DNA of 64,000 bases. Origin: Sacculina carcini. Its lineage: Eukaryota; Arthropoda; Thecostraca; Sacculinidae. Position numbers and translations under genes: made by a program. This document shows, piece by piece, positions 10,068-47,800 of the stretch. Below the pieces are notes generated by a model that made no database searches, was not told the origin of the DNA, and was given only the letters and a program-made list of their open reading frames with translations. The stretch covers positions 13,005,020 through 13,069,019 of the forward strand of contig OU696570.1 of the NCBI GenBank assembly GCA_916048095.2, read 5' to 3'. Position 1 is the first letter of the stretch. The number at the start of each line of letters is the position of its first letter.

Positions 10068-10071
10068 AGCG

Positions 10072-11068
10072 TGTGGCGTGTCATGCCATATAAATGTATA
10101 TATAAATGTATATATAAATGTGTGTATATTTAAATGTGTATGCGTGCGCGTATGCGTTTATATGTATGTGCCGCACGTGTTTGTATGTTTGTGTGGCATG
10201 CCTTCCAGAATGTTCGGTGTAGGTTAGGTGACGTGTGTCTACGTACAACCAGCAAACACGCTTGTTGCATGTGTATACGTGTGCGTATGTGTCTCTATGT
10301 ATGTGCCGCATGTGTCTGTATGTTTGTGTGGCATGCGTTCTAGAATATTCCATGTAGGTTAGGTGACGTGTGTGTGCGTGTTAGCTTGCGAAAATAGTTC
10401 AGCCAATCACAGTAGCCTACGTGCTGGCGTGATCACATAGCTACCAATCGGGTGGTTACATTTGTCTTTTACTATTGCCTGGCCAATTGTGTTCCAATGT
10501 TCATACGCGGTCCGGTCGATGCACACGCACGGCCAAGTATATTTAAGTCCCGTCGCCTCGGTGCGCGGGCAGTTGGACTGGGACTTTGGCAATAGCTTGA
10601 CTGACAGGGCTACTCTCTGTGTCTCGCTCGCCTTGTGTCAGTTCGACCCGAGCATCGTCCGACACATTGTGTTGGACAACGTGCTCGTTGCGATTGCCGC
10701 GCATTGGCCTAGGATATTACCTGTATTACTTGTAACGGTGCAGTAGCTGTTTCAGTGGAGGACTCGCTACACCACTGTTACGGAATTCTGTGCCGCGGCC
10801 TTCGTGCCGAGGTTTTGCTGGTCTCCGGCCTTTGATATTTATTGCGCGATTATTACCTGTATTATTTGTAACGGTGCAGTAGCTGTTTCAGTGGAGGACT
10901 CGCTACACCACTGTTACGGAATTCTGTGCCGCGGCCTTCGTGCCGAGGTTTTGCTGGTCTCCGGCCTTGTGATATTCTATGTACTATTGTTACTGTGTAT
11001 TTATAATATATCTGCTGTGCTACACCGCTCTTTGTTATGTGCGCGCTCTGAACGAGCTTCGCGTAACA
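10072..11068 (+). repeat. 5' LTR (997 bp)
   Basis: Starts TGTGGCGTGTC and ends CGCGTAACA; matches 16956-17952 along its whole length. It carries two internal two-copy tandem duplications: one with period about 135 bp (from about 10134 to 10388) and another with period 136 bp (10716-10851 and 10852-about 10968). A TATA-like GTATATTTAAG lies at 10537-10547 and is the likely promoter. Small open frames inside it are incidental. Confidence 0.95.
10537..10547 (+). promoter_or_regulatory. Putative LTR TATA box
   Basis: GTATATTTAAG sits mid-LTR, about 530 bp upstream of the LTR end, where a U3 core promoter is expected. The transcription start is not determined; a start about 25-35 bp downstream near 10570 is inference. 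Confidence 0.45.
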
Positions 11069-11070
11069 AG

Positions 11071-11081
11071 TGGTGACCCCG
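11071..11081 (+). promoter_or_regulatory. Primer binding site, tRNA-Trp
   Basis: TGGTGACCCCG starts two bases after the 5' LTR. It is the exact complement of the last 11 bases of mature eukaryotic tRNA-Trp (CGGGGTCA plus CCA). The two-base gap (AG) is the usual retrotransposon spacing. Confidence 0.85.
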
Positions 11082-11273
11082 TATTTTATCAGTATTGTAC
11101 TCGTATTATATAAGTACTGTATTATTATAGAGTCGTGTAGTTTTCAGTAGCGTTACGTACCGTTGATTAGCTCTCGTTCGTAGTTTGTAGCTAGTTCGCG
11201 GTTTGTAGCTAGTTCGCAGTTGTGGCTCATTCGCTTGCAGTTATTGCCGCTTACTCTCGCATACTAACCCAGC

Positions 11274-12125
11274 ATGGACGGTGAAGTGAAATCAGACGCG
11301 GTGTCTGTTCCTGCCGTCATGGGTCCACCACCCCCATTCGTGGAAAACGACCCAAGTGTGTGGATAATTCAGCTGGATTTATATTTTGCCAGAGCAAATA
11401 TTAGGCAAGAAACTCTTCGTTTCCAAACAGCCGCATCGCTTCTGCCGCCGCATCATGTCCGTGAGTTTATAGATCTCATTCGTAAACCACCTGCAGACGC
11501 CTATACGCAGTTGTGCAACGCTCTACAGTCGCGACTGGGCGCGACGAATGAGCAGAAATTGCGTACGGTGCTGGAACAGCAGGAATTAGGCGACCGGCGG
11601 CCCAGTCAGTTTCTCCGTCACTTGCATGACCTGACAGCGCCGTATATTTCTGACAGCGAATCGCCACTGGTACGGCAAATATTTTTGAAGGCGATGCCAG
11701 ATGCTGTCGCTCCATTCCTGCAATTTTTGCCACCGGAGACGCCGCTAGAAACCCTGGCTGGCACAGCGGATCGAGTGTTGACTGCACTGCCGAGTGCTAG
11801 CCTTGCAATTAACGCAGTGAGTCCACCTGAGCACGGCTGCAATTGCGCTAAAGATCTGGCTGAAATGCGACAGTGTTTGAACCAGCTGCAGCGCCAAGTC
11901 AGCAAGCTCGCAGTGCGGCGGACTGCCTCGCCAGCCTCGCAACAGGTGCCGTCTCGCGTAACGAGGCACAAATCTCCGCGACCGGTAAAGTCTCGGTCAC
12001 ACTCTGTGGCAAAAGACGAGGAATCCACCACAGATGGTGAGAGGACCAACCTTTGTTGGTATCATTACAATTTCGGCGAGAAAGCGCGCTCGTGCGAAAA
12101 ACATTGCAGGCATTATTTAAACTGA
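11274..12125 (+). CDS. gag: Gag polyprotein with CHCC box
   Basis: 283-residue Gag of the LTR element, forming the particle that packages element RNA. Residues about 20-165 form the Gag fold common to this group of metazoan Gypsy elements ([20 protein letters not shown], then [33 protein letters not shown]). Residues about 205-255 are basic and Ser/Arg-rich. At the C terminus C261-x2-H264-x9-C274-x3-C278 forms a CHCC zinc box in place of the usual CCHC knuckle. The ATG at 11274 is the first in frame after the leader. The stop TGA (12123-12125) directly follows a slippery heptamer, so a fraction of ribosomes should enter pol in the -1 frame. Confidence 0.92.
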
Positions 12126-15100
12126 TCCCGAGAGGAGAATGTCTGCCAAATTCTTCTCTCGCAACCATCGCAGGCAGCCACAAAAATTCACTGTTTTTCA
12201 TCCGGGACCAGGTATCAAGCATTTCCTTTTTGATAGACACCGGGGCGCAGTATAGTATCGTGTCAACGCGTCATTATCCATCCAGTGACAAGTCTTCATT
12301 GTGTCTGCAAGCGGTCAATAACAGTGCTATACGCACACATGGTTCTAAAACGCTCACAGTATCACTCGGTCTGCGTAGAAATTTTCCGTGGACATTTATC
12401 TTAGCTGATATTGACATATCGATAATCGGGTGTGATTTCCTTTCGCATCATGATATTAGCGTTAACCCAAGAAAGTGCGAGCTTATCGATAATACCACGC
12501 AGCTCAAGGTTCGCGGTTCTGGTTCACATGCGCCTTTGCTGATCTCCGTGTCCATATCTGGTCACCATGAGAACTACCAGGCCATTGTCAAACAATTCCC
12601 AGAGCTTTTGTCGCCTTCCGTCACTTCTGACGTTTCGAAACACGGTGTTTTTCACCGAATTCATACACATGGTAAGCCTGTGTTTTGTCGACCTCGAAAA
12701 CTTGATTCTGCTAGGCTGAAAATTGCCAAAGCGGAGTTTGAAAAGATGCTGGCACAGGGTATAATACGACCGAGTAACAGTCCTTATGCATCGGCACTCC
12801 ATCTTGTTCCGAAACGGGCATCTTCCGATTGGCGGCCTTGTGGAGATTATAGAGCTCTGAACAGAGTAACAACTCCGGACAGATACCCAGTGCCGTATCT
12901 GCAAGATTTTTCTGCAGCATTACATGGTTCGACTGTATTTTCGAAGATTGACCTGGTCAAAGCGTTTTTCCAGATTCCTGTACACCCGGACGACATACAC
13001 AAAACGGCAATCACCACGCCATTTGGTTCTTTCGAAATGTTGCGGATGCCGTTTGGATTGCGTAATAGCGCGCAGTCAATGCAACGTCTGTTGGACTCAG
13101 TACTCCGAGGCTTAAATTTCATATTCGTGTACATAGACGACATCTTGATAGCCAGCAAAAACGAGGCAGACCACCGGTCGCATCTACACACAGTTCTCAG
13201 TCGTTTGCGCGCACACGGCATCAAAATAAACATAGACAAATGCGTGTTTGGCAAGCCGGAATTGACTTTTCTCGGCCACACGATAAATAAGGGCGGCATA
13301 CTTCCACAGCACGACGCAGTGAAAGCTATAATCGAATTTCCTCTTCCAAAAACGCACGAGCAACTGCGTAGGTACTTGGGCATGGTAAATTTTTACCACC
13401 GTTTTTTGCCTCATGCAGCTTCACTTCTTGCTCCCTTACACAAGCTGATAACAAATCATGCAAAAAAATCCAAGGTTCCTGTCATATGGACAAACGAGGC
13501 TACAGATGCATTTGACAAGTCAAAAAACGCACTTAGCGAAGCCGCGTCGTTGCATCATCAGAATGACTCCGCGCAATTAGCTCTTTTCACAGATGCCAGT
13601 GATTCCGGGATTGGTGCAGTTTTGCAGCAATGTAGTCACGGTGAGTGGCAGCCACTGGCTTTTTGGTCGAAACAGCTGACTTCAGCTCAAGCCAACTACA
13701 GTGCGTTCGGTAAAGAAGTGCTAGCCGTGTATTTATCCGTTCGACATTTCCGTCAGTATCTAGAAGGTCGAGATTTCACCATATTTACCGACCATAAGCC
13801 GCTGACGCACGCGATCCGCACTCCCACACACAACCACTCACCGAGAGAACAGCGCCATTTAGACTACATACTACAGTTCACTGCAGATGTGCGTCATATA
13901 AGCGGCAAGGACAATGTGGTCTCTGATGCGTTATCTAGAGTAAGCGCCGTGTCTTCAACCATTGACATAGACTCGCTGTCAAAACAGCAGCAAGCAGATA
14001 CTGAACTGCAAGAACTTTTACAAAACGAGTCAACCAGCTTGAAACTGGAGTGGCAGAATTTTCCTGCAGTTTCCAAAAACAAAATTCTGTGCGATATTTC
14101 AACCGGAACACCGCGACCCTTGGTGCCAACCAAAATGCGTCAGGATGTTTTCCGTATCTTGCACAGTCTTTCCCATCCAGGTCGAGCTGCAACTTTGAAG
14201 CTCGTATCCGACAGATATGTCTGGCCCAACATGCGACAAGATATCGTTACTTGGACCAAACAGTGCGCACATTGTCAAACATGTAAGATCACCAGACATA
14301 ATCGTTCACCAGTCGGACAATTTGAGCTGCCCTCGCGCCGGTTTCAGAATGTGCACGTAGACATAGTAGGCCCACTTCCGTGCTCTAATGGTCACCAATA
14401 TATTTTGACAGTGATTGACAGGTTTACACGCTGGCCAGAAGCATGCCCTATTCCTGACATATCGGCCGATACGGTAGCACGATATTTTATTTCAACTTGG
14501 GTGTCACGTTTCGGTGTCCCCGAGAGTATTGTCTCAGACAGGGGCACTCAATTCACAAGCCACCTCTGGAGACAACTCAACAACTGCTTCGGATCTAACA
14601 CGCGCTTGACAACGGCGTACAATCCGGCAGCCAACGGCCTAGTAGAACGGCTTCACCGCCAGCTCAAAGGCGCACTTCGGGGTTGTAGTGACTGGACAAA
14701 CAGACTGCCAATAGTCCTGTTAGGTATTCGGTCCTGCATGAAATCACCTTTAAATTGTTCCTCCGCCGAGCTGGTATATGGTGCCAAATTGCGTTTACCA
14801 GGTGAATTGTTAAATAGACAACCACAATTGACTCACACATATTGTCAGTTTGCCAAACAATTGTCTGAACATTTCAGTGCTATCCGGCCACAGCAGACCC
14901 GTGCAGCTGAGACAGCAGTGTTCCACCTGCCCAGCTTGTCCGATGCAGATTTCGTGTTCGTGCGTCATGACGGCCACAGACGTCCGCTGCAGCCGGTGTA
15001 CCAGGGGCCGTACAAGGTGGTGAAACGTACGCCAAAAACGTTCACTATTGAGCGGCATGGACACGAGGTGGTCGGCATTGATCGTCTGCGTCCAGCATTT

Positions 15101-15271
15101 CTGGAAAATGAGAATATTTCATCCGCTCCGGAGAACGACAGCTTCGTGCATCAGGCAAAACAAAACTCCACCAAGATCACTCACACTCAGACGCACACCA
15201 CACCACAATCCATTTTGTACCGTACCCGATCTGGCAGAGCTGTCAAACCTCCGGTTCGTTTCTCGCCATGA
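12053..15271 (+). CDS. pol: Pol polyprotein: protease, RT, RNase H, integrase
   Basis: Open frame of 1072 codons, uninterrupted; the true product is probably Gag-Pol made by -1 frameshifting at about 12122, so the ATG at 12053 is not a real start. Residues in the frame: aspartic protease DTG at 62-64; reverse transcriptase with VYIDDIL (YIDD 360-363); RNase H with FTDAS (D514) and FTDHKPL; integrase zinc finger H704, H708, C738, C741; catalytic D770, D829, E865 (35 residues between the last two); then a GPY/F-like module near 984 (YQGPYKVV). All catalytic residues are present, so this copy may encode active enzymes. It ends 16 bp before the polypurine tract. Confidence 0.95.
12116..12177 (+). 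promoter_or_regulatory. -1 ribosomal frameshift signal between gag and pol
   Basis: Slippery heptamer T TTA AAC at 12116-12122, read in the gag frame as the last two sense codons before TGA. After a 6-nt spacer comes an 11-bp stem: 12129-12139 (CGAGAGGAGAA) pairs with 12151-12161 (TTCTTCTCTCG), with one G-U pair and an 11-nt loop. Loop bases CTGCC (12143-12147) can also pair with GGCAG (12173-12177), which would make an H-type pseudoknot. Pol is in the -1 frame relative to gag, as required. Pairing was checked by eye; energy was not computed. Confidence 0.88.
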
Positions 15272-15274
15272 TCT

Positions 15275-15283
15275 AAGGGGGGG
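15275..15283 (+). promoter_or_regulatory. Polypurine tract (first copy)
   Basis: AAGGGGGGG just after the pol stop and 4 bp before the LTR start at 15288; it would prime plus-strand DNA. The same tract recurs at 16943-16951 before the 3' LTR. Confidence 0.75.
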
Positions 15284-15287
15284 CTCA

Positions 15288-15392
15288 TGTGGCGTGTCAT
15301 GCCATATAAATGTATATATAAATGTATATATAAATGTGTGTATATTTAAATGTGTATGCGTGCGCGTATGCGTTTATATGTATGTGCCGCAC
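15288..15392 (+). repeat. Truncated internal LTR, first 105 bp
   Basis: Matches the first 105 bases of the LTR, then breaks at GCCGCAC, inside the first unit of the 135-bp internal repeat. What follows is LTR sequence in the opposite orientation. Confidence 0.93.
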
Positions 15393-15713
15393 TTGTTACG
15401 CGAAGCTCGTTCAGAGCGCGCACATAACAAAGAGCGGTGTAGCACAGCAGATATATTATAAATACACAGTAACAATAGTACATAGAATATCACAAGGCCG
15501 GAGACCAGCAAAACCTCGGCACGAAGGCCGCGGCACAGAATTCCGTAACAGTGGTGTAGCGAGTCCTCCACTGAAACAGCTACTGCACCGTTACAAATAA
15601 TACAGGTAATAATCGCGCAATAAATATCAAAGGCCGGAGACCAGCAAAACCTCGGCACGAAGGCCGCGGCACAGAATTCCGTAACAGTGGTGTAGCGAGT
15701 CCTCCACTGAAAC
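15392..15713 (-). repeat. Inverted LTR 3' segment (322 bp)
   Basis: Reverse complement of 11070 back to 10749. It starts at CTTGTTACG, that is two bases outside the LTR end and directly against the primer site, exactly where minus-strand strong-stop DNA starts. It ends at TGAAAC (15708-15713), a 6-bp identity with pol at 14040-14045, where the sequence switches to pol in the forward direction. Confidence 0.92.
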
Positions 15714-16955
15714 TGGAGTGGCAGAATTTTCCTGCAGTTTCCAAAAACAAAATTCTGTGCGATATTTCAACCGGAACACCGCGACCCTTGGTGCCAACCA
15801 AAATGCGTCAGGATGTTTTCCGTATCTTGCACAGTCTTTCCCATCCAGGTCGAGCTGCAACTTTGAAGCTCGTATCCGACAGATATGTCTGGCCCAACAT
15901 GCGACAAGATATCGTTACTTGGACCAAACAGTGCGCACATTGTCAAACATGTAAGATCACCAGACATAATCGTTCACCAGTCGGACAATTTGAGCTGCCC
16001 TCGCGCCGGTTTCAGAATGTGCACGTAGACATAGTAGGCCCACTTCCGTGCTCTAATGGTCACCAATATATTTTGACAGTGATTGACAGGTTTACACGCT
16101 GGCCAGAAGCATGCCCTATTCCTGACATATCGGCCGATACGGTAGCACGATATTTTATTTCAACTTGGGTGTCACGTTTCGGTGTCCCCGAGAGTATTGT
16201 CTCAGACAGGGGCACTCAATTCACAAGCCACCTCTGGAGACAACTCAACAACTGCTTCGGATCTAACACGCGCTTGACAACGGCGTACAATCCGGCAGCC
16301 AACGGCCTAGTAGAACGGCTTCACCGCCAGCTCAAAGGCGCACTTCGGGGTTGTAGTGACTGGACAAACAGACTGCCAATAGTCCTGTTAGGTATTCGGT
16401 CCTGCATGAAATCACCTTTAAATTGTTCCTCCGCCGAGCTGGTATATGGTGCCAAATTGCGTTTACCAGGTGAATTGTTAAATAGACAACCACAATTGAC
16501 TCACACATATTGTCAGTTTGCCAAACAATTGTCTGAACATTTCAGTGCTATCCGGCCACAGCAGACCCGTGCAGCTGAGACAGCAGTGTTCCACCTGCCC
16601 AGCTTGTCCGATGCAGATTTCGTGTTCGTGCGTCATGACGGCCACAGACGTCCGCTGCAGCCGGTGTACCAGGGGCCGTACAAGGTGGTGAAACGTACGC
16701 CAAAAACGTTCACTATTGAGCGGCATGGACACGAGGTGGTCGGCATTGATCGTCTGCGTCCAGCATTTCTGGAAAATGAGAATATTTCATCCGCTCCGGA
16801 GAACGACAGCTTCGTGCATCAGGCAAAACAAAACTCCACCAAGATCACTCACACTCAGACGCACACCACACCACAATCCATTTTGTACCGTACCCGATCT
16901 GGCAGAGCTGTCAAACCTCCGGTTCGTTTCTCGCCATGATCTAAGGGGGGGCTCA
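15708..16955 (+). pseudogene. Duplicated 3' part of pol (integrase end) plus polypurine tract
   Basis: Copy of 14040-15287 at a constant offset of 1668. The encoded residues from [10 protein letters not shown] to the pol stop (at 16939) are identical to the first copy and include the whole integrase catalytic triad, but there is no upstream gag, protease or RT. It is not expected to be an independent gene; it is a by-product of the rearrangement. Confidence 0.92.
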
Positions 16956-17952
16956 TGTGGCGTGTCATGCCATATAAATGTATATATAAATGTATATATA
17001 AATGTGTGTATATTTAAATGTGTATGCGTGCGCGTATGCGTTTATATGTATGTGCCGCACGTGTTTGTATGTTTGTGTGGCATGCCTTCCAGAATGTTCG
17101 GTGTAGGTTAGGTGACGTGTGTCTACGTACAACCAGCAAACACGCTTGTTGCATGTGTATACGTGTGCGTATGTGTCTCTATGTATGTGCCGCATGTGTC
17201 TGTATGTTTGTGTGGCATGCGTTCTAGAATATTCCATGTAGGTTAGGTGACGTGTGTGTGCGTGTTAGCTTGCGAAAATAGTTCAGCCAATCACAGTAGC
17301 CTACGTGCTGGCGTGATCACATAGCTACCAATCGGGTGGTTACATTTGTCTTTTACTATTGCCTGGCCAATTGTGTTCCAATGTTCATACGCGGTCCGGT
17401 CGATGCACACGCACGGCCAAGTATATTTAAGTCCCGTCGCCTCGGTGCGCGGGCAGTTGGACTGGGACTTTGGCAATAGCTTGACTGACAGGGCTACTCT
17501 CTGTGTCTCGCTCGCCTTGTGTCAGTTCGACCCGAGCATCGTCCGACACATTGTGTTGGACAACGTGCTCGTTGCGATTGCCGCGCATTGGCCTAGGATA
17601 TTACCTGTATTACTTGTAACGGTGCAGTAGCTGTTTCAGTGGAGGACTCGCTACACCACTGTTACGGAATTCTGTGCCGCGGCCTTCGTGCCGAGGTTTT
17701 GCTGGTCTCCGGCCTTTGATATTTATTGCGCGATTATTACCTGTATTATTTGTAACGGTGCAGTAGCTGTTTCAGTGGAGGACTCGCTACACCACTGTTA
17801 CGGAATTCTGTGCCGCGGCCTTCGTGCCGAGGTTTTGCTGGTCTCCGGCCTTGTGATATTCTATGTACTATTGTTACTGTGTATTTATAATATATCTGCT
17901 GTGCTACACCGCTCTTTGTTATGTGCGCGCTCTGAACGAGCTTCGCGTAACA
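16956..17952 (+). repeat. 3' LTR (997 bp)
   Basis: Same length and apparently the same sequence as the 5' LTR, including both internal tandem duplications and the TATA-like box (17421-17431). It is followed by the AGCG target duplication. Confidence 0.95.
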
Positions 17953-18117
17953 AGCGGTTGAAATGGATGAAGCACCACACCTTTCTATTGATACAACACT
18001 CACAAAAGCCATTACAACAACAACGGATGTTTACTAAAGTACAAAAATATAAGCACAGGAACAAGAAGATTAGCTAAAGAAAAAAATTAGAAAATTGGCT
18101 TACATACACAAGAAGAA

Positions 18118-18512
18118 GGTAGAAGTTAACATGTAGAAGGTAGCAAATCAAGGTTAAAGGTTACAAAGATTAGAGGCACAAATGTTAGAGGTTAAAGGCC
18201 TAAGTGACAGCTGCTACACGGGGAGAAGTCGAAGCTTATGAACACACAGGTGTGTCCCGTGCAGCTCGCTGCCACCGCAGAACCGACCCTCCCCACGCTA
18301 TTGCGCCACATGGACGAAAGACGTATTAGAGAGGGCGACCTCCTCAGAATGCATGGCAAAACACTTGATTGACATCTGGTATCGTCATTTACTGCTGAGT
18401 GGACAGGGACTGTTGGATTATAGAATTCGCCCAAAAGAAATTCTCCTCCGCCGGATTCGAGCCACGGACTTCCCGCTTGTGAGGCGGGTGTGCTACCACT
18501 ACACCACGGAGT
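18118..18512 (-). mobile_element. tRNA-Val-derived SINE, copy 1
   Basis: The head (18446-18512, minus strand) folds as tRNA: box A TGGTGTAGTGG, box B GGCTCGAATCC, anticodon stem CCCGC/GCGGG with 7-base loop CTCACAA, anticodon CAC (plus-strand gtg at 18479-18481). The body (about 330 bp) includes GCGGTGGCAGCGAGCTGCAC and ends in a TAACCTT-like tail. The same head plus body recurs at 47082-47430, which shows a retroposon and not a tRNA gene. The 3' border is approximate. Confidence 0.85.
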
Positions 18513-19389
18513 TTTGCGGTGCGTTGCGTTGAGTTTCAAAACATTGAATTGCGTTCGGAGGATAGCCGTTGGCTATCAACTAGCTTCTGAACCCTTAAGG
18601 CAGGTTTCGATTTTAATCCATCTCCCTCGCTACAGAACAGTAGGGGAGCAGGTTTATTCGCCAACAACTCGACTAGACGTCTGACGCCGATTTTCATAGG
18701 GTGATCTCAACGGATTGGTCTCGCATTTTCGGAAACTAATTCGGCTTCGTCTAGGAGAGAAGATATAAGCAAACAGCTTGTCCTACCGAAAATAAAGCGA
18801 GTCGATTCAAATGCGGGCTATGATCGCTCACCATTAGCCTTCTCAGTCCGTCCTGTGATCACCCACTTTGTCTGATATGTCTTCTACATTCGTTACCAGT
18901 AAGCAATCGAAGTTGATAATCTTGCACAAAATCTGAGGCCAAATGGTCTCACTTAGTCTCAGCCGGCATCTCAAGCTTACGTTTCATGGACAATCCTTTT
19001 GCTCTCTATTTGAAACACATTGGTTCTGAACCTGGCATCGAACGCACCCCAGGAGATCGGTGAGTCAGTTTCAGGGATGCGGTGGTTTGGTTCACCCACT
19101 CGTATGATTCGTGACCTTTGCTTGACCATCATTGGTTGCATCTAATCACGCTACATCGCTTGGTCTTGATATCTGTGCTGCAAGCAACTCGGTCCACTCA
19201 GTAGTAGCCTACTTGTGACTGTCTTGATCGTATGTATTTGTGATGTTTCCTTCAATAGTTCAAACACGAAGGGTTCGATGAATGTGTATATGTGGAGCTT
19301 GTGGAGTTCAGCACCTCCATTAAGTTTAAGAATCACTGTTCTAACATCCTAAAATCAACACAATCCAATCTCGAACTTCTTGTGATTAG

Positions 19390-44800: not shown

Positions 44801-47800
44801 CCGGAAAAAATACCAGCGCCGCCACCGGCCCAGAGATACTTAAAAACAAGTCATGATCCAAGCCGACCAAACATCTGTTCAACTTCAATTGAATAACGAA
44901 AATAAAGTAGCGATTTTCGACAGTAGATTGCAATATTTAAAATTTAGCACCAGCAAACCGTAAACCATAAGCATATTGTTATCGGCTGTCGTGAATGCGT
45001 TTATAGTATTGGCCGCTAGTCATGATAAAAACAGTCATGTAAAGTATACTACAAGTAGTGCAGTACACTACTTTATGACGGTGCTTATGCTGTAGTGTAC
45101 AATAGTATATGTAGCATAATAGTATATATGAAAACCTTACTGTTGCCTGACCTTACATAACATCACTTATTCATTGCTCAGTCAAATACAGGATCGTACA
45201 CTAACACAGATAAGTATGTATGTATAATGCAAGTGTATATGTAAGTATGCATGAATAATTTGAAATGTCTTCATAATGTACTCTACTGATGAGGCACAGA
45301 CAAATCCACCGCTGTTTAGCGATATTCACCGAGTCTGAGTGGCAACACTGAATGGAGTGCCCCCTTGCCTGGGTGAACGACAGCATGTAGTCCATGAGCG
45401 CTCCGGTGGCGTCACGGATGCCCTCGCGCAGGTGCAGCGCGGCACTGATGCGAGGGTCGTACACTTTGGCGGCATTGAGCGAGAAACGGTGCCCTATGTG
45501 CATCCAGGGCAGCACGTCTTCGGGATCGCTGACCTCACGCTTATTGAGCATCGGCGCAAGACCTGCAGGACATGAAGTGGGTCCATCGTTCAGCTATGTC
45601 TTCAACAACAGCCGATGGGCAATCAGCAATCGACAGGGATCGTGAAAACACTGGCTAGACCTCGATATTTGTCAGAAGTCATCAACGGATGAAATCAGAT
45701 GAAACGGTCGTCTTACAGTGAAAAGCTTAGTCCATCAAGCCCTTAGAGGACAGTCATAATTTCCCATCACAGCTTGATGTTTCGTTCAACACAAGTGAAT
45801 TAAGCTACTGCACAAGCAAAACACACTAAAACGCTCACTCATTCGGATGAACAACATCACCCATCTACACAGTTTATCTTAATGGGTAGGCTCTGAAGTG
45901 GCAAAAATTTATGGCGTTGAGCTAGTGACATATCTGGAATAATTAAACAGCCCAGGAATTAGACAGTGATACAACAAGCACCAGATACTTGTAAGCCATA
46001 AGTACCGTTGTACAGGCAGTAACCCCTTGTGCCAGTAACAAAGTAGAATCATCCAGAGTGTAGCGTTATTGCGTAGATTTATAACAACTAATGCTTAACT
46101 TAATTAACAACACCATCATGATATTGGACTTTACCCTTAATAGGAAACAATTCTCCGTTCTCTGACACATTTGAGTGACAAACTTCATACCTTGGTCGAT
46201 AGTATATAACCAACCATTTGAGACTAAACATGGACATAACTCACTCGGTGTTAGTAATAGCGTGACTTCAAGTCATCATTACCGACGCTACAGAACACCA
46301 TTATTACCAGCGACTTATGAGTATGTGTGTGTGTGTATGCATGTATGTTTATGGGTGTATGTGTCTTCGTGGGATTAATACTCACATAGTGCATCGGATT
46401 ATACCTCAATTTGCTTCGGCATGTATGTATGCATATGTGTGTATGTGTGTATGTGTGTGTGTTTGTGTGTGTAAATGGCTAAGTGCGCGTTTGTTAGCGA
46501 GTAATAATCAACATAGCAATGAACACTCGATGTAATGCTTTGATCTGTAGTGCAAAAATGATATGCTTTGATCTTCCCAATGCAAGCGTTTAAGCCGAAA
46601 TTGAATAAAATTTCGTGGTGGAAATTCGACCCTGTTAAATACTAACCGTGTCTTCTGGTGAGAGGTGGAAGTGGTGGAACATTTTCTGGCTCGGTCGATC
46701 GCAGAATATCGCGATTCCTTATCACTTTCATCATCTGGGCTTGCTTGATCTTCTCGCTCTGTGAAAGCGCCATAATAGAAATAACAACCAAGACAGGCAT
46801 ACCAAAACAAAATGCACATTGAAACACAGGAATCATTGGCATGTAATGCCTCATATTTACATACCATTGGTAGAACATTTTATAAGCGACACACGGCACG
46901 CATAAACGCGAAACTGATACATTTCATAGTGAAAATTCGAAAACGGTCCAGACAGATATCGTTTGCTTCTTATTGGCCAAATTGTTCTATAGACTAAAAT
47001 AGAGATGGTTATTGGAGATGGTACCCATCTGTGTGCGATTGAACTTGCATTTTCATACGACTGCAAAGGGGTTTATGTGATATAAAGCTTAAAAGGTTGA
47101 ATGCTGCAAGGTTAAAAGCCTCAATTGGCAACTGCTCACGAGAAGAAGCCGAAGCTAATGAACACACACAGGTGTGTCCCGTGCAGCTCGCTGCCACCGC
47201 AGAATCGACCCTCTCCATACCATGGCGACACAAGGACGGAAGATGTATTAGAGGCCCACCTCGCCAGAACGCGTGGCACAACACATGATTGATATCTGGT
47301 ACCCATTTACTGTTTAGTGGACGGGGGCTGTTTGATTATAGAATTCACCGAAAGAAATTCTTCTCCGCCTTGTTTTGAACCACGGACCTGCCGCTTGTGA
47401 GGCGGGTATGCTACCACTACACCACGGAGTCCAATTAATGTTGAAACATTTGCGACCATATAGGCGGGCGTGATAAATCGATTAAAACATTTTAGCACGT
47501 TGGACGACTTAGAGAGTCAAAATTATCAATCATAAGCAAGATTATTATGTACCATGACGTTTAATCAGCTAAAATCGCACATATTTACAACCTTGCATAA
47601 TTCTAAAACTGAAAACGTCATTGCGTCCAGTGGTTAGTGTATTTACTATGATTAGTAATATAAGCTTCATATATTTAAACATTATTGCATTTGTATTCCT
47701 TGCCAGAATGCTTCTCAAAGTGCATCTTAAACTATTCCCTTGTACTAGTTTGCATCTAAATTATAATATTTTATGCTCTATTTATGCCTAATAACAAATA

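Follow-up and report, generated by a model that had tools for sequence, protein, structure and literature searches.

For the CsRn1 clade of Ty3/gypsy elements (CsRn1, PwRn1, and AgCR), the accessible text of PMC2582038 defines the CHCC motif as CX2HX9CX3C. In Ty3 and Ty1, first strong-stop products copying the tRNA are expected to be dead ends, as stated in the available part of PMC5371799. A stop of plus-strand synthesis at m1A58 of the tRNA, which nucleotide 59 adjoins, is also known (accessible portion of PMC13191261). Work on strong-stop intermediates, and on where they stop, is mostly done in test tubes or virus particles. Here, a rearranged Ty3/gypsy element with CsRn1-clade features was analyzed in a 64,000-nucleotide stretch of the Sacculina carcini genome (the window). 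The element was very probably an aberrant reverse-transcription product that was inserted by integrase as one unit.

Layout of the element and its duplicated segment

The element occupied 10072-17952 of the window from LTR to LTR. Its features, with the basis of each in brackets, were as follows.

10068..10071, no strand: target site duplication (TSD) AGCG, left copy (sequence)
10072..11068, forward: 5' LTR, 997 bp (997/997 identity to the 3' LTR)
10749..11070, forward: source-equivalent of the inverted piece, the last 320 nt of the LTR and the AG spacer (322/322 as reverse complement)
11069..11070, forward: AG spacer separating the LTR from the primer site (the bases copied first into minus-strand strong-stop DNA)
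11071..11081, forward: primer binding site (PBS), 11 nt complementary to the tRNA-Trp 3' end (sequence)
11274..12125, forward: gag, CHCC motif CX2HX9CX3C, DUF7041 (motif and family matches)
12041..15271, forward: pol open frame, first copy, with protease, RT, RNase H, and integrase (stop to stop)
14040..15392, forward: duplicated segment, first copy, with integrase, polypurine tract (PPT), and the first 105 nt of U3 (1353/1353 against 15708-17060)
15275..15283, forward: polypurine tract, first copy (read by eye)
15288..15392, forward: truncated U3, 105 nt, bearing the element's private U3 allele (sequence, alignment)
15390..15392, no strand: J1, overlap CAC, strong-stop/tRNA boundary (sequence)
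15392..15713, reverse: inverted AG and U5/R piece, a strong-stop-like copy (reverse complement of 10749-11070, 322/322)
15708..15713, no strand: J2, overlap TGAAAC (sequence)
15708..17060, forward: duplicated segment, second copy (1353/1353 against 14040-15392)
16943..16951, forward: polypurine tract, second copy (read by eye)
16956..17952, forward: 3' LTR, 997 bp (997/997 identity to the 5' LTR)
17953..17956, no strand: TSD AGCG, right copy (sequence)

The CCA end of the tRNA paired starting at 11071. Past 11 nt the PBS diverged, with TATTTTAT in place of the tRNA-predicted ACGTGAT. Protease, RT, RNase H, and integrase domains were present, a chromodomain was absent, and the final 184-aa piece matched no Pfam family. 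The integrase tail carried GPY (by eye). The 11-nt tRNA-Trp primer site, the Gag motif CX2HX9CX3C, and the 4-bp TSD (the PwRn1 value; AGCG here and GCAT in the family copy C8) were all consistent with the CsRn1 clade. The closest named Gag relatives among the 55 proteins listed were from the crab Petrolisthes cinctipes.

A first-pass annotation of the window had described a repeated integrase end, an inverted LTR piece between the repeats, and full-length outer LTRs flanked by one 4-bp duplication. All three were confirmed at every base, and the identity of the duplicates extended past neither end. Two nested insertions, for which the target duplications had been proposed as a check, were rejected, as a single TSD encloses the whole and the inner LTR pieces never have both LTR ends.

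The inverted match was 324 nt against the 5' LTR/PBS side and 322 nt against the 3' LTR side. Since the former reached 2 bases further leftward, J1 was ambiguous over the CAC at 15390-15392. J1 lay within 2 nt of the base at which minus-strand strong-stop DNA begins (11070-11072 equivalent), beside the AG spacer and the tRNA-Trp primer site, where the annotation had placed it. In the window copy, no more than 2 nt derived from the tRNA. The homology at J1 was CAC; the GCCGCAC previously named as the join merely precedes it. The TGAAAC shared with pol was found as the overlap at J2. In a scan of one LTR and the internal stretch, an overlap of at least 6 nt (the size at J2) was offered at 2/5186 acceptor positions and one of at least 3 nt (the size at J1) at 120/5186, so that the position of J1 at the strong-stop boundary could be a coincidence.

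A TATA-like box was located at 10538-10547 in the LTR, and from its spacing the transcription start is presumably near 10570. With this predicted start, complete strong-stop DNA would be about 500 nt. The inverted piece corresponds to its first 322 nt and ends inside R/U5, short of the predicted strong-stop 3' end.

Junctions and sibling copies in the genome

The junctions were compared with a 264-Mb assembly, a search that the first-pass annotation had suggested. J1 was spanned by one of the 40 matches listed (40 of 184 candidates scored) and J2 by one of 36, in both cases the window copy. Two further, weak matches to the J2 probe (87-88%), on C24 and C19, reached or almost reached the left end; they were rejected because both were ordinary pol. 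The U3 allele at 15303-15322 was present in both duplicates and in 0/27 other copies, the alignment having covered 27 of 28 loci, indicating that the parts came from one source lineage. Gene conversion from another copy was rejected on the same grounds, as the duplicated U3 bears the element's own allele.

Among 32 family copies whose 5' LTR/primer-site junctions were read, three (C8, C6, and C30) contained an 18-nt tRNA copy. The tRNA match stopped at nt 59 in all three, and like J1 these ends were breakpoints at a strong-stop boundary. The end was unambiguous in C6 only; the last 5 tRNA nt of C8 were common to U3, and the last 2 nt of C30 were common to the old PBS. The order in C8 was LTR, AG, 18 nt of tRNA, inverted U3/PPT/pol, and U5; its second joint had no overlap. 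Like the window copy, C8 had a single TSD of its own around full LTRs. In C6 the 18 nt were followed by a 17-nt filler, and in C30 the PBS was tRNA-derived. A fourth copy, C25, was 5'-truncated with 92 nt of LTR remaining and carried 35 nt of tRNA directly after its 3' LTR. Altogether, 29/33 junctions retained the divergent, RNA-type PBS and 4/33 held tRNA sequence.

The flanks of C25 differed in sequence, and a 4-bp repeat was absent. One flank was a very common repeat (40 of 450 candidates scored), LINE-like by eye only; the sequence on the other side did not match as its continuation in the one copy compared, and no empty site was obtained. Tandem elements at C25 were rejected despite tandem-like spacing, the pair being a 5'-truncated copy with a tRNA-tailed 3' LTR. 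At C1, where the spacing was also tandem-like, two elements in tandem seem to have one LTR in common.

The tRNA copies in sister elements, together with a long PBS elsewhere, showed the anticodon CCA, the loop CTCCAGA, and a paired stem. ARAGORN found no tRNA-Trp gene at L076-L078, L007, L083, and L084. All 16 matches to a tRNA 3'-half pattern carried CCA and look like reverse-transcribed copies. An approximate 5'-half pattern gave 0 matches.

Explanations for the rearrangement

The strong-stop boundary, the single 4-bp TSD, the identical LTRs, the uniqueness of the junctions among the matches listed, and the tRNA-bearing siblings gave good support to unit integration of reverse-transcribed DNA. 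The reading of the element as a fossil of aberrant reverse transcription is thus partly supported, namely in its origin and in its integration as a unit. The specific route first proposed is possible but not required, since a single growing minus strand that uses the second packaged RNA, along with the strong-stop DNA which that RNA has not yet transferred, arrives at an identical structure in two switches and without a joining step.

Within this class, we lean towards the single minus strand, with RNA 1, an unused strong-stop DNA, and RNA 2 as its successive templates. On RNA 1, minus-strand synthesis would run from the 3' LTR as far as base 14040, in pol. The nascent GTTTCA end would anneal there to a TGAAAC in minus-strand strong-stop DNA that was made on the second packaged RNA and had not yet been transferred. 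RT would copy this DNA up to its 5' end and halt at the tRNA primer or 2 nt inside it. The new AAG or AAGTG end would move to CAC in the U3 of RNA 2, where the normal minus strand would be completed, and ordinary plus-strand steps and integration would follow. We infer the template order and the use of two RNAs; the duplicates are identical, so the sequence cannot reveal two RNAs, and it likewise does not fix the order of the switches. In the other route, which seems rather unlikely, an incomplete strong-stop DNA ending in TGAAAC would anneal to pol minus-strand cDNA and prime the plus strand through integrase and LTR, and its tRNA-bearing 5' end would be bridged to another cDNA in U3. The free 3' end of strong-stop DNA is able to mis-prime, and the junctions and overlaps are equally accounted for, so that the two routes appear inseparable by sequence; this one requires a strong-stop DNA halted at 10749 and an extra bridging step over the CAC overlap only.

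Outside this class, host end joining of unintegrated cDNA pieces (a blunt unprocessed U5-AG end and a broken U3) before insertion by integrase is improbable. Unprocessed linear cDNA would likewise end in CAAG, at the base where strong-stop DNA starts; C25 has an unprocessed tRNA-bearing end; and the second joint of C8 lacks overlap. The 6-nt overlap at J2 and the 3-nt overlap at J1 favour annealing, and two separate joins of the correct pieces would be required. Duplication with a short inverted templated insert and microhomology is a recognised mark of replicative repair, and template switching at a broken fork in a normal inserted element would produce such a structure; identical copies are compatible with a recent event. 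Such repair after integration is quite improbable, as it leaves unexplained both the breakpoint at the strong-stop start and the CCA-bearing tRNA joined to the LTR in C8, C6, C30, and C25, which has no obvious chromosomal source. An assembly or library chimera is very improbable: the structure comes from one assembly, but the breakpoint falls at the strong-stop boundary, one intact TSD encloses the whole, and related yet different structures occur on other contigs. Autointegration, in which integrase joins the U5 end into the element's own U3, yields inverted LTR joints within an element. Processed ends stop at CA, but AG (and TG) are kept after CA here, and a 4-bp repeat is absent around the joint, which makes this origin extremely improbable.

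Comparison with known systems

As the PBS-tRNA match is only 11 nt, plus-strand strong-stop DNA that includes an 18-nt tRNA copy would have a mismatched 3' end. It is tentatively proposed, at somewhat under even chances, that in this family such mismatched ends are diverted to their own U3, other strong-stop DNA, or filler, and that these misprints integrate, so that the genome keeps an inherited record of normally invisible reverse-transcription intermediates. The 11-nt pairing is thus suggested as a testable cause of template switching in the family, and template switching in an invertebrate Ty3/gypsy element becomes accessible to a genome census.

Integrated aberrant cDNA is already known; the architecture of duplicates around an inverted strong-stop copy, together with its sibling series, appears to be a new form of it. 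A literature search of titles and abstract openings, with subscription papers mostly outside it, gave no account of an LTR element in the germline whose duplicates enclose a strong-stop copy in inverted orientation. In common with the CsRn1 clade as characterized in the accessible text of PMC2582038, the element has a tRNA-Trp site, the CHCC motif, a 4-bp TSD, the order PR-RT-RH-IN, and a GPY integrase tail. Unlike the clade as presented there, its PBS pairing ends after 11 nt, and this copy is rearranged. With the recycling of plus-strand strong-stop DNA in Ty3 and Ty1, the primer tRNA is as a rule not the source of the PBS that is passed on (available part of PMC5371799). The junctions here give a mixed picture: 29/33 had the divergent PBS, as such recycling would predict, and at 4/33 tRNA copies did reach the Sacculina genome. 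In HIV-1, aberrant 2-LTR junctions into which tRNA or PPT sequence has been inserted likewise show strong-stop boundary errors and primer tRNA retained in DNA, but they are unintegrated circles in the accessible portion of PMC5618025, whereas the Sacculina copies are chromosomal and one contains a strong-stop copy in inverted orientation. HIV-1 proviruses whose two LTRs are asymmetric are also integrated products, attributed to switching between two packaged RNAs in the available text of PMC9278108. Those proviruses are deletions, whereas in the window element the direct duplicates are bridged by strong-stop sequence in inverted orientation.

Structure and family of the rearranged element

The window element is a rearranged Ty3/gypsy copy in which an inverted LTR piece separates two copies of the integrase end. 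Its extent and joints were as follows.

10072-17952: whole element, with identical LTRs of 997 bp and the 4-bp target site duplication (TSD) AGCG
15390-15392: CAC, overlap at J1, the joint between the first duplicate and the inverted piece
15708-15713: TGAAAC, overlap at J2, the joint between the inverted piece and the second duplicate

By sequence comparison within the window, 14040-15392 was present again at 15708-17060 (1353/1353 identical), and the reverse complement of 10749-11070 formed 15392-15713 (322/322 exact), so the first-pass annotation had placed the duplicates and the inverted piece correctly to the base. Its proposed J1 homology, GCCGCAC, was merely the sequence preceding J1. 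Two extra bases at J1 came from the 5′ LTR/primer-site side only (324 versus 322 nt). Both LTRs also contained a tandem duplication of period 136 (10715-10832/10851-10968 in the 5′ LTR, 117/118 identical); several other copies apparently have one unit.

The Pfam domain order was DUF7041 Gag, protease, RT, RNase H, and integrase. An 18-residue Gag stretch formed the motif CX2HX9CX3C. PMC2582038 describes this motif and a primer site for tRNA-Trp as joint hallmarks of the CsRn1 clade; the window element has both. Its primer site (PBS) was complementary to tRNA-Trp for 11 nt and divergent beyond. Long tRNA copies at other loci of the assembly, with anticodon CCA, a paired anticodon stem, and a CCA end, gave the identity of the primer tRNA.

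Copies in the assembly

The assembly comprises 264,436,087 bases in 43 contigs. The integrase segment gave 42 matches listed (40 of 278 candidates scored). The window copy alone spanned the junction among the 40 matches listed for the J1 probe (40 of 184 candidates scored), and it alone spanned J2 exactly among the 36 listed for the J2 probe. Two weaker J2-probe matches, at or nearly at the probe's left end, were ordinary pol. Across the duplicate's 1247 internal bases, the copy on contig C25 showed no differences and two other copies showed one each. The three U3 stretches of the window element all carried one allele at 15303-15322, which was absent from the 27 other copies aligned. Judged from the near-zero internal differences and the common U3 allele, the duplicated parts are of one recent source lineage. 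Elsewhere, two copies 5194 bp apart (C1:7322259-7331794) apparently have a common LTR, as a tandem element.

tRNA sequence at LTR ends

The bases following the LTR end were compared at 33 junctions from 32 loci, drawn from the J1-probe match list plus one C1 copy. The loci comprised 31 with 5′ junctions and the C25 3′ end; adding the window gave 32 5′ junctions. RNA-type PBS followed at 29 junctions and tRNA sequence at four; two of the loci counted, on C6 at 3.26 and 3.33 Mb, probably represent a single segmental duplicate, with 3042/3053 bases identical in the part compared.

The C30 copy (C30:5483329-5486382) had 18 nt of tRNA in place of the PBS. The C6 copy (C6:8080520-8080820) had LTR-AG-18 nt tRNA, a 17-nt filler, AAG, and a second, RNA-type PBS. 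The C8 copy (slice L069, C8:9940800-9943200; positions within the slice) was flanked on both sides by the TSD GCAT and was arranged as follows.

340-1341: LTR, then AG
To 1361: tRNA piece, 18 nt
1357-1726: inverted U3, overlapping the tRNA piece by GTGAT
To 1875: inverted PPT/pol
1876-1945: direct U5, with zero overlap at the joint with inverted pol; normal interior next

The C8 copy (340-1945), a member of the family, is read as an independent aberrant cDNA. The tRNA match ended at nt 59 in C30, C6, and C8, unambiguously in C6; the last bases were common with the joined sequence in C8 (five) and C30 (two). This end lies just before position 58, where m1A is known to stop plus-strand synthesis, and tRNA-Trp is among the primer tRNAs with m1A (PMC13191261).

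In the C25 copy (L006/L007, about 3840524-3845886), the 3′ LTR was followed by AG and a CCA-bearing tRNA-Trp piece of 35 nt, and 92 nt of the 5′ LTR were left. A 9-nt link connected this copy to a repeat that is abundant and, by eye, LINE-like; no 4-bp repeat was found on comparing the two sides of the copy. The insertion looks integrase-independent. Since CCA-ended tRNA lies beside the LTR without an obvious chromosomal source, the four copies tie the family's aberrant junctions to reverse transcription. A tRNA-Trp gene was not found in the whole assembly with a 3′-half pattern (16 matches) and a 5′-half pattern (0 matches). All 16 matches carried CCA and look like reverse-transcribed copies.

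At all of these 16 sites (L076-L078, L083, L085-L092, L105-L107, L007), the tRNA-Trp complement was at least 33 nt long; most of the sites resemble the PBS of another LTR family. The complement ended exactly at nt 38 in 6/16, just before G37, the m1G37 modification site. It differed at exactly nt 58 in 4/16, or 7/22 with position 58 open in the pattern; some sites are visibly related, and shared ancestry may contribute. Primer sites may record tRNA modifications via stops and misincorporation. The window also contained, on its minus strand, a tRNA-Val(CAC)-like sequence at 18443-18513; a second tRNA match, at 47363-47429, was weak.

Proposed route and comparison with known systems

Followed in minus-strand direction, the element in the window begins with the LTR and integrase as far as 14040 and continues with LTR in plus sense, from GTTTCA to AAG(TG). 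U3 comes next, from its base 105, and after it the entire element in order. We infer the following order of template switches. The growing minus strand would jump at GTTTCA onto free minus-strand strong-stop DNA and copy it to the 5′ end. It would leave this template at AAG, or at AAGTG had the copying taken in two bases of the tRNA, and could then anneal anew, through CAC, to a second RNA in U3. If the particle contained two RNAs, no template would have been lost before its turn. The C8 copy has a related topology on the plus-strand side, where the strong-stop 3′ end turns back onto U3. A 3′ mismatch from the divergent PBS is a plausible candidate cause of the family's aberrant products.

The first-pass annotation instead had strong-stop DNA prime the synthesis, a route that gives the same final sequence. 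Against the reverse-transcription reading, the rearrangement is one case known from assembly sequence, the J1 coincidence has no more weight than a 3-base overlap allows (120 of 5186 positions offer such an overlap), the inverted piece falls short of the predicted R start, and identical templates conceal the number of RNAs used.

Aberrant reverse-transcription products are already known. HIV-1 2-LTR junctions with tRNA or PPT inserts are described in PMC5618025, and integrated products attributed to switching between packaged RNAs in PMC9278108. The apparently new feature is that direct duplicates enclose a strong-stop copy in inverted orientation; no such element was apparent in the titles and abstract openings searched. 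Faulty integration can rearrange host DNA and attach viral ends to more viral sequence, direct or inverted (PMC5041404); those products are related but different: host enzymes make them at one end, and normal short TSD flanks are lacking. In Ty3, plus-strand strong-stop DNA arises as a dead-end product, and the PBS is not preserved by tRNA copying, as outlined in PMC5371799. The present family mostly shows a similar pattern at the PBS (29 of 33 junctions), with exceptions that reached the genome.
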